Source: Vibrio litoralis DSM 17657
GTDB lineage: Bacteria; Pseudomonadota; Gammaproteobacteria; Enterobacterales; Vibrionaceae
Length of the DNA: 64,000 nucleotides
Direction: 5' to 3'
Assembly: GCF_000426765.1 (NCBI RefSeq)
Contig: NZ_KE384566.1
Span: 248,001 to 312,000 of the forward strand
A model generated the notes under the pieces. The model was not told where the DNA came from, did no database searches, and saw only the letters and a list, made by a program, of their open reading frames with translations. The translations under genes and the position numbers were made by a program. Positions 1 through 2,546 of the stretch are shown here, piece by piece; the stretch's first letter is position 1; each line of letters begins with the position of its first letter.

Positions 1-719
1 ACTGTTTCCTCATGCAAACCAAGTCTAATGATAAGAGGCAGTGTTTCTGGTAAAGGGGTATTGCTTTCTTTAGCCGCAATGAACTGTGGCGCTAGAGTGA
101 AAAATAATGTCTCTAATCGTGTAACCAGAAGCTTTTCTTCTTCATCTGAGTACCCCTTAAACGGCGCTTTTTCTCCAGTAAACCCTCGGTGGTTTCTCGC
201 CCAATCGGAAATAGGCAAGCCGCACCATTCAAGGGCAATACGAAGAGATGAAAGCATTCCTGAAGCGGTAGATTCTTTAATCCCTAACTCATCACCATGA
301 TTGTATTCCCATAGGCGTTTTGAAGGGGTAAACATCTTGATACGATGCCTTAACTCGCCATCGTTGCCAGCAAGCTTCAAATAGCCGTTTTCCGTGAATG
401 GGTTAACATTTATTGCATCACAAAAAGCAAGGTAAGCGTGTAAGTTCTCGTAGTTTACTGTGACGGTGAGTGCTGAATTGCCATTGCTGACATATTGATT
501 AGCTTTTTTGCAAAAAGACCTGATAAATACGGCTCGACTGCTTATCTTTTCATTTTCTTTGCTCCCCCCTAAATGCAATAGGTGAGAAACATCGAACTGC
601 TGTACTTGGTTTTTATGAGATTGTTTATAAGGAATCTCAAAATTCAAAGGAGCAACATTTTGATTGTTTCGCACATGCTTGACGGCTGTGGACTGTTTTG
701 CGATTTTGCTTTTCGCCAT
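1..719 (-). CDS. Tyrosine-recombinase-like protein of a mobile element, N-terminal part (runs off left edge)
   Basis: Read on the minus strand, an open frame starts with ATG at 717-719 and has no stop before base 1, giving about 239 residues of an incomplete protein. Its start overlaps the stop of the upstream recombinase gene by one base (TAATG). A GGAGG ribosome binding site lies 9 bases before the ATG (729-733), so the two genes are translationally coupled. The visible part has a predicted helical region (about residues 85-170, including LHAYLAFCDAINVNPFTE) resembling the SAM-like core-binding domain of tyrosine recombinases. The catalytic half is off the window, so activity cannot be judged. 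Coupling to an intact recombinase suggests a second integrase or a recombinase-fold accessory protein. Family assignment is by resemblance and context only. Confidence 0.7.
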   Translation of the reverse strand, partial: MAKSKIAKQSTAVKHVRNNQNVAPLNFEIPYKQSHKNQVQQFDVSHLLHLGGSKENEKISSRAVFIRSFCKKANQYVSNGNSALTVTVNYENLHAYLAFCDAINVNPFTENGYLKLAGNDGELRHRIKMFTPSKRLWEYNHGDELGIKESTASGMLSSLRIALEWCGLPISDWARNHRGFTGEKAPFKGYSDEEEKLLVTRLETLFFTLAPQFIAAKESNTPLPETLPLIIRLGLHEET

Positions 720-2122
720 TACGACCAACCTCCGTTTATTTTGCGGTTTTTGGCTTTGGCCGTGTTGGTTTGGTCGTCTAGCTTATTCATGTATTGAATG
801 TACTTTTCGGTGGTCGATGTGCTGGCGTGTCCCATCAATTCCGCTAAGTCACCCATAAGGTAGTCATAGCTAACATTACGCTCTTTTGACTCTTCCCAAA
901 GCCAGTGAGTAGCAAAGGTGGAACGTAAATCATGAATTCGGTAATACCAAGAAGAGTCCACTTCCCGAATCTGCTTTCTAAGGTTTGAAAAGTGCGTTTC
1001 TAAAGTATTGGCGGAGTAAGGCGCACCTTTGTTGGAGAGAAATAGGTACGCAACGGTATCCATTTCGTTGCCTGCCTGAATAAGCTCATTACGCTTGTTT
1101 AGGTTTTTACGTTGCGTGTGACTTTCTTTGTGTATCTCTAGCTCTTCGTACAGTTCTATAGGGATTTCTACGGTACGTTCTTTACTGCCTTTAGTGTGAG
1201 TAATTTTGACTGGTATAGCATCTAAATCACTGTAGTTAGCGTTTCCGATGTCGTGAGCGGGGAAGTGAATAGCTTCATCTATTCTAAGTCCTGCTTCTGC
1301 ACATAGCTGAAAGATGAGTTTTGTCGTCTTTGGGAGTGACGTTATATGTTCATTAAATAAAGCTTTGTGCTCAGGATGCATGGGCTTGAGCTTTTTGTGA
1401 GCAGGAGTATTTTGTTTTTTAGGGAACATCCTCAGAATATTGGAAGTTTCATAAGTACGCTGAGAGCCAGATTTTGTGTGAGCTAGCATATCGTGTTGGT
1501 TTAACTTCTGATGCACTGTTTTTGTGGAGTAGTGCGTAACGATATTTTCATTGTTATTTTTGATGTAGCCGTTTTTTTGCATCCACTTATAGAATCCAAT
1601 TACCACGCCCATATAGGTGCGAGCGGTAGATAAACTAAAAGCCTCGCTGCCATTAGAGCCTTCAATATCATTGCAGTTCGCAAGCAGGAACTCAGCAAAT
1701 CGCCAAGGAGCGCCCTCTTCTTCGTACTTCGATAGGCTTTTATACGTTAGATATTCACATGGTATCTCATGACCATCTTCATCAACTTGAGAGTGGTGAG
1801 TCGAATCCAAATAACGAGTGAAAGCTAGCAAACCTTTTGTGATTGAACTTGTGTCTTTTACAGCCGCTTCACCACGTAATTTAGATACTAGATAAAGAGA
1901 CTGTGGATAAACTACTCTACCGTCAGGGGCAATGATGATATCGGTTTTCTTTATGCGTGACTTTAGGTTGGAAGGAGAGAGGTAGGGAGAGTGCGTCACT
2001 TCCCCTGATTCAGTATTGGTATTTGTAGCGATTCTTAGCTTTGCTAATGTATCGACTTCGACCGAAAGAAGTCGGTAGTCATCATAAACATCAGAACATT
2101 TTTCTTTGTACGTTTCTATCAC
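719..2122 (-). CDS. Site-specific tyrosine recombinase (integrase) of the mobile element
   Basis: The 467-residue protein has every catalytic residue of a phage-type integrase: Arg280 (GLRIDEA), a beta-hairpin Lys near 311-314, His397 and Arg400 in HDLR, His432 in LMGHAS, and the nucleophile Tyr441 in TTEKYIQY. The N-terminal 250 residues hold the core-binding domain and a long lead-in. Known role of the family: cutting and rejoining attachment sites to integrate and excise the element. It is the outermost gene of the element, starting about 90 bases from the junction with bcp, and reads into a second recombinase-like gene that begins at its stop codon. The layout recalls the three-recombinase operons of Vibrio integrative elements such as Tn6283; that likeness is from memory and unproven. 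Confidence 0.93.
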   Translation of the reverse strand: MIETYKEKCSDVYDDYRLLSVEVDTLAKLRIATNTNTESGEVTHSPYLSPSNLKSRIKKTDIIIAPDGRVVYPQSLYLVSKLRGEAAVKDTSSITKGLLAFTRYLDSTHHSQVDEDGHEIPCEYLTYKSLSKYEEEGAPWRFAEFLLANCNDIEGSNGSEAFSLSTARTYMGVVIGFYKWMQKNGYIKNNNENIVTHYSTKTVHQKLNQHDMLAHTKSGSQRTYETSNILRMFPKKQNTPAHKKLKPMHPEHKALFNEHITSLPKTTKLIFQLCAEAGLRIDEAIHFPAHDIGNANYSDLDAIPVKITHTKGSKERTVEIPIELYEELEIHKESHTQRKNLNKRNELIQAGNEMDTVAYLFLSNKGAPYSANTLETHFSNLRKQIREVDSSWYYRIHDLRSTFATHWLWEESKERNVSYDYLMGDLAELMGHASTSTTEKYIQYMNKLDDQTNTAKAKNRKINGGWS

Positions 2123-2213
2123 AAAACAATCCTCGATATGCTACCCACATATCAAAGGTAGATTTGTCATAAAAATATATCAAGGTTTTCTGTCATTCTT
2201 TTTTTCTAAGGGT
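2123..2213. other. Terminal region of the integrated element, up to the bcp junction
   Basis: This gene-free strip lies between the integrase start and the point where bcp coding sequence loses its family match, after the Phe codon at 2214-2216. It is AT-rich. It holds a perfect 6-bp inverted repeat, GATATG (2135-2140) and CATATC (2148-2153), and two near-identical motifs, ATATCAAAGG (2149-2158) and ATATCAAGG (2177-2185). These could be recombinase binding arms and the core of an attachment site. The exact edge is inferred from loss of Bcp similarity, so it is good to a few bases at best, and the other end of the element is not in the window. Confidence 0.5.
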
Positions 2214-2546
2214 AAACTTCTTCTCGCCCCACACGCCAAATTGTTCAGCGACAGCATGATCTTCATCAGAGAGTAGAGTGAAGTTCAAGTTATCTCGCTC
2301 GATAAACTTACCTAAGCGTTTTACTGGGTCAATACTGACGCCGAGTACGACCACATTTTTATCGACTAATTCTTGGTGAATATCGCGAAGGCCTTGGGCT
2401 TGAACCGTACAGCCAGGCGTCATTGCTTTTGGATAAAAATAAAATAAAACTTTTTTACCTTTAAAGTCACCTAAAGAAACGGTGTTGCCGTCTTGATCAA
2501 GTAAAGCGAAATTAGGTGCGGGAGTGCCTGCGGTTAATGTTTGCAT
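2193..2546 (-). pseudogene. bcp: bcp (thioredoxin-dependent peroxiredoxin), 3' end removed by element insertion
   Basis: Bcp reduces hydrogen and organic peroxides in the cytoplasm using thioredoxin. The remnant keeps the thioredoxin fold start and the peroxidatic Cys46 in the motif TPGCTVQ. As is common in Vibrio, the second Cys position is Gln (QAQGLRD). Similarity is strong up to residue 111 (FGVWGEKKF), then changes to six unrelated residues (TLRKKE) and a stop. Family members run to about 155 residues and continue with MGKxYDGIHRISFLI. About 40 residues are therefore lost, including the last strands and helix and a conserved Arg, and the protein is probably inactive. The cut coincides with the edge of the recombinase-bearing element. 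The 3' fragment should sit at the other end of the element, off window. Confidence 0.88.

Follow-up and report, generated by a model that had tools for sequence, protein, structure and literature searches.

Strand-biased circularizing integrative elements (SEs), a class of mobile DNA that was defined recently, use an unusual copy-out mode and can spread resistance genes (PMC9345347, PMC10214605). Tn6283 (SE-6283) is described as inserting in bcp of E. coli and as carrying a bcp homologue (PMC5991714), and three further Vibrio elements are reported to lie in bcp and to carry it (PMC9345347). Other known elements share parts of this arrangement. In Vibrio cholerae, the recA mobile element (RME) likewise interrupts a housekeeping gene and brings along a divergent, functional version of it, but its target is recA and its excision leaves an empty site (PMC4405046). 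Tn552-II of Staphylococcus aureus carries a gene resembling its target, proposed as a rescue, and brings in the spacer of its donor site; its target-like gene keeps a copy of att, whereas the spare bcp described below lacks the left arm of the site (PMC12486829).

Identity and ends of the element

The window is the whole stretch of 64,000 nucleotides that was analysed (G000:C1:248001-312000); features outside it are given in G000:C1 coordinates. A sequence-only reading had placed two translationally coupled recombinase genes at its left edge, had likened them to Tn6283 and had supposed that an integrative element continued to the left. We found that the sequence left of base 1 is indeed element and not ordinary chromosome, and we concluded that the recombinase pair is very probably the left end of a bcp-targeting SE of the SE-6283 type, with the mechanism proposed below. 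The features are as follows.

G000:C1:233596-250214, whole element, 16,619 bp, inserted in host bcp; ends placed from the host bcp arms and the inverted repeats
1..2214, minus strand, part of the element within the window
2193..2546, minus strand, broken host bcp, a 117-aa frame; host letters 2215-2546, the remainder element
2215..2220, no strand assigned, attL 6-bp spacer, GAAGTT in the bcp sense
2191..2214, minus strand, left terminal repeat (motif C), TACCCTTAGAAAAAAAGAATGACA
2165..2188, minus strand, inner second copy of the terminal repeat, AAACCTTGATATATTTTTATGACA
719..2122, minus strand, intA, tyrosine recombinase of 467 aa with a GTG start; PF00589, catalytic residues, 77% identity to Tn6283 IntA
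1..719, minus strand, first part of tfp, which runs on to G000:C1:246392; 775 aa counted from the ATG at 719
G000:C1:244182-246377, outside the window, intB, tyrosine recombinase of 731 aa; PF00589, E 4.8e-07
G000:C1:243679-244182, outside the window, srap, 167 aa
G000:C1:243048-243512, outside the window, spare bcp, complete, 154 aa, directly behind srap
ending at G000:C1:233596, inverted partner of the left terminal repeat, TACCCTTGGAAATTTTATGAGACA
G000:C1:233590-233595, attR 6-bp spacer, AAAATC

The interrupted gene, bcp, is a peroxide-defence gene. It is broken after codon 110, and its 3' part continues beyond the opposite end of the element. Transcription passes from the broken host bcp through intA, tfp, intB and srap to the complete second bcp, and then into the cargo. 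The locus has several of the traits by which SEs were defined: the four core genes intA-tfp-intB-srap stand at one end, a split attB is retained in attL and attR, the ends are imperfect inverted repeats, and there is a 6-bp spacer. It also has those of the SE-6283 subfamily, with bcp both as target and as cargo. The tandem layout of the terminal repeat was likewise found at the left end of related elements.

The closest described relative is SE-6283 on pSEA1 of Vibrio alfacsensis 04Ya108, which shares the core gene order, 77-83% protein identity in the core, the bcp target, the bcp behind srap, the repeats and the 6-bp spacer (PMC5991714; PMC9345347). It is 13.8 kb long as against 16.6 kb here, and the resolvase, helicase and Mrr/STAND cargo of our element differs. 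Because of this likeness to Tn6283, and because three bcp-inserted, bcp-carrying Vibrio elements have been published, we regard the element as a further member of the known subfamily.

The attR spacer of our element, AAAATC, is no bcp spacer. The attR 6-bp footprints of six elements (our own, L034, L035, L038, L083 and L090) read AAAATC, GAAATT, ATATGC, TGAATT, ATAGTA and CATCTA, and are mostly unlike bcp spacers; arrival from non-bcp sites, for example on plasmids, would fit them.

Core genes

The first gene proved to be a complete tyrosine recombinase, as had been claimed: IntA matched PF00589 in Pfam (E 9.9e-16), and R280, H397, R400, H432 and Y441 were invariant among 15 aligned sequences. 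Its stop overlaps the start of the second frame at TAATG (TAA 721-719, ATG from 719), with GGAGG upstream, and this arrangement recurs in related elements and is therefore not due to chance. The second frame has no stop in the window. Judged by its 81% identity, it is the orthologue of Tn6283 Tfp. The description of this frame as recombinase-like was not confirmed. Tfp had no match in Pfam or NCBIfam, no profile similarity to IntA or IntB and no match among PDB sequences, and its model, of low confidence (mean pLDDT 52.8), found no fold match at E <= 0.001; a role for Tfp as the second catalytic recombinase was thus unsupported by any of these searches. The SE authors predicted for Tfp a recombinase fold without the catalytic motif (PMC10214605), an assignment that our sequence, profile and model comparisons did not reproduce.

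The second catalytic recombinase is instead the third gene, IntB, outside the window. Its R359 or R363, H499, R502, H526 and Y535 were invariant among 14 sequences, and its box II aligns with IntA. With intB and srap, both of the further genes that the sequence-only reading had suggested looking for, a third recombinase and a small accessory gene, are present. Protein identities to Tn6283 were 77% (IntA), 81% (Tfp), 83% (IntB) and 78% (Srap). A tblastn search of the plasmid collection with IntB found Tn6283 on pSEA1, at 82.6% and with the same gene order, so that the proposed kinship was upheld.

Survey of the subfamily

We sought IntB in 227 genomes of the genus, of which 28 had a match at E <= 1e-20, in genome_contigs (17 loci) and in plasmids (97 records, two of them at 80-90% identity and evidently one plasmid). 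De-duplication left 26 subfamily elements for which the sequence covers the right side of the core; 15 came from the genus search and 10 more from genome_contigs, and one is that of pSEA1. Their hosts belong to Vibrio, Photobacterium, Shewanella, Parashewanella, Pseudoalteromonas and Thalassotalea. The count leaves out G129, whose contig ends inside intB, and the survey covered a single one of the distant plasmid matches and, in G011, not the second SE copy (L074). Core genes were damaged in some elements, e.g. L088, L090 and L096.

A bcp copy lay behind srap in 26/26 of these IntB-found elements, the copy of V. variabilis (L077) being frameshifted. All 20 elements with an available left flank were inserted in bcp; of the other six, one is a plasmid record and five lie on contigs that start at the element's edge or within it. 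Two extra elements (G326 and G265) agree; they came from searching with the site pattern of the copy itself, an approach biased towards carriers. No bcp was found in any of the 13 stretches covered around distant SE loci (12 from the genus, one on an Alteromonas plasmid). Earlier papers had described bcp as target and as cargo for SE-6283 and three relatives; the present analysis adds the carriage in 26/26 and the insertion in bcp in 20/20, the history and site loss of the copy, the mosaic host bcp genes and the radA case.

History of the spare bcp copy

The spare bcp scored 236.5 bits against the NCBIfam thiol-peroxidase model (cut-off 140). It is constrained: pN was 0.00-0.12 at pS 0.15-0.91 when relatives' copies were compared with that of the window element. 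Between unrelated Vibrio, pairs of native bcp genes of the site-less type gave pS 0.54-0.88 and pN 0.02-0.10. Three elements (G003, L085 and L089) had pS 0.75-0.86 to the window element in the core and 0.37-0.39 in bcp, and V. mediterranei (L037) had 0.11-0.19 in the core and 0.38 in bcp. Purifying selection as the sole cause of the copies' likeness was therefore only partly true: the three elements share silent sites with the window copy in bcp and not in the core, which demands exchange besides selection. In a quick tree, the bcp data rejected the intB clade among 20 elements (AU p 0.002). As read from these comparisons, the history of the spare bcp differs from that of the core.

These results bear on whether the spare bcp is ordinary hitch-hiking cargo, kept by descent and not by its relation to the target, which we think unlikely. 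The carriers do all fall in one core subfamily, and a bcp deletion in E. coli is reported to have grown faster, not slower, than wild type (PMC5991714), so that the need for a spare is not obvious. However, the same AU conflict between copy tree and core indicates that copies have been exchanged, and yet 0/26 elements have lost the copy, with one frameshifted; moreover, one distant SE, whose target is radA and not bcp, carries a copy of that target.

In 20/20 targets, TGGGG is part of the left arm of the insertion site. The corresponding place reads TGGCA in 25/25 copies examined, and TGGGG in 0/25. Being without this arm, the spare bcp is probably no target for insertion. A site-less bcp of the same type is the resident gene in ten genomes of the genus, with dapA, gcvR or perM as neighbours as far as the stretches reach, and the copy was therefore probably taken from such a chromosome. 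No promoter was found for the spare bcp. One terminator-like hairpin lies between srap and the spare bcp (L183:10225-10256), against 0.4 (sd 0.7) expected; at that count chance is possible, yet similar letters stand upstream of the copy in several elements.

Mosaic host bcp genes

An exact pattern for the site-less form gave one match per genome in 31/227 genus genomes and 37/325 family genomes. By their neighbours or whole-gene sequence, the 37 comprised 19 element-borne, 15 resident and 3 mosaic genes. In two relatives, Vibrio G209 and Photobacterium G329, the host bcp is overwritten across the insertion site by element-type sequence.

G209 is a near relative of the window genome (identical nucleotides: dapA 848/876, gcvR 495/558, perM 957/1071, bepA 1326/1464), and the genus genome search found no IntB match in it. 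Positions 1-291 of its bcp have host letters at 103/119 informative sites, with 6 of the element and 10 of neither, positions 292-440 have element letters at 50/51, and after 440 host letters return (9/10). None of 10,000 shuffles with sites treated as independent produced a run of 48 element sites. G329 shares its group code with P. ganghwense and P. frigidiphilum, and its bcp is host-type at the ends and element-type in the middle. Against host L197, positions 1-33 gave 12 host and 1 element letters, 34-430 gave 124 element and 6 host, and 431 onwards 12 host and 1 element; hosts L196 and L198 agree with L197, and with L192 the 3' end gave 5 host and 6 element, favouring neither. G329 appears to be without the element, given its single site-less match and unbroken locus. 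In G151, bcp is mosaic by protein, but divergence at the nucleotide level is too great for a donor to be identified. A further gene, the element-free bcp of L042 (G001:C75:33200-36200), has a one-base deletion beside the SE insertion site, which may be real decay or a sequencing error.

Vibrios take up DNA, and site-less native bcp occurs in ten Vibrio genomes; the mosaics could thus have come from ordinary transformation with the chromosomal site-less bcp of another species, the element being uninvolved. We give this account little credence in view of the tracts themselves. Positions 293-440 of G209 are identical at 148/148 to the copy in the G185 element and at 147/148 to that of the window element, but at best at 131/148 to any of the ten resident site-less genes. 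Likewise, G329 is identical at 384/414 to the copy in G326, an element of its own group, but at best at 352/414 to a resident gene.

We interpret the mosaic genes as probable scars of exchange between the element's copy and the host gene, an exchange visible in their letters and a route that we infer. The source may have been either an inserted element that collapsed or incoming element DNA. A site-less allele rebuilt in this way would be expected to resist insertion. In the literature searched and the portions of text covered (PMC5991714, PMC9345347, PMC10214605), mosaic bcp genes and a copy without the site were not reported.

Proposed mechanism and its meaning

By analogy with published SEs, IntA and IntB, with Tfp and Srap, would join both ends on one strand and so yield a copy in the form of a nicked circle, with no empty site left behind; this copy would insert at a fixed spot in bcp with a 6-bp footprint. 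Insertion breaks bcp after codon 110, and the complete, diverged bcp behind srap, whose presence and constraint we observed, would presumably take over its function. Homologous exchange between the spare bcp and the host gene, for which the mosaics speak, could then restore a whole bcp without the site, by a route and with an effect on re-insertion that we suppose. GInts (ginABCD islands) have a similar four-gene layout, likewise made up of three genes of recombinase type and a small one. That the element is a GInt is highly improbable, as its core proteins are 77-83% identical to those of an SE, and in the comparison made by the SE authors GinC/Tfp and GinD/Srap fall into separate clusters (PMC10214605).

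For an SE of this type, we put forward tentatively, as a possibility somewhat short of a favoured conclusion, that the spare target gene is dual in role: it would keep the host fit during insertion, and it would serve as a site-less template for rebuilding bcp, with loss of the element and closure to its return. The bcp family illustrates how an SE may occupy a functioning gene at little cost, and the mosaic genes suggest hosts cured, perhaps immunised, by the element's own cargo. If the proposal is true, site-less bcp alleles would spread by recombination through the Vibrionaceae, and such elements would be following a recurrent strategy in which a diverged version of the housekeeping gene that they break (bcp, radA, perhaps recA) travels with them.

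Other cargo and a second target

The cargo beyond the left edge had been named as a place that could hold the most novel genes. This was borne out in part: the cargo gene of interest is the spare bcp, and the remainder includes a serine resolvase, a helicase gene whose small partner lies on the opposite strand, an HTH gene and an 894-aa protein. The last (G000:C1:235044-237728; L183:1645-4329) has Mrr nuclease and nSTAND1 NTPase domains above the Pfam cut-offs. It gave weak matches against PADLOC (best E 0.0012), and is possibly a defence gene. No RNA family was found in the element at gathering scores.

Among the distant SEs, short repeats occur in L103 and L106-L109, and 12 of the loci showed no pair of target and copy in an all-against-all test. 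The SE of G161 (L105/L199, G161:C1:298500-328000) has such a pair: it interrupts the host radA after codon 15, and immediately before its intA stands a complete, divergent radA that is 42% identical to the host gene over 459 aa. A possible relative of SEs or GInts is the element in recA of V. parahaemolyticus, for which the published gene table places an integrase and two long genes listed as unknown next to the broken recA (PMC4334540).
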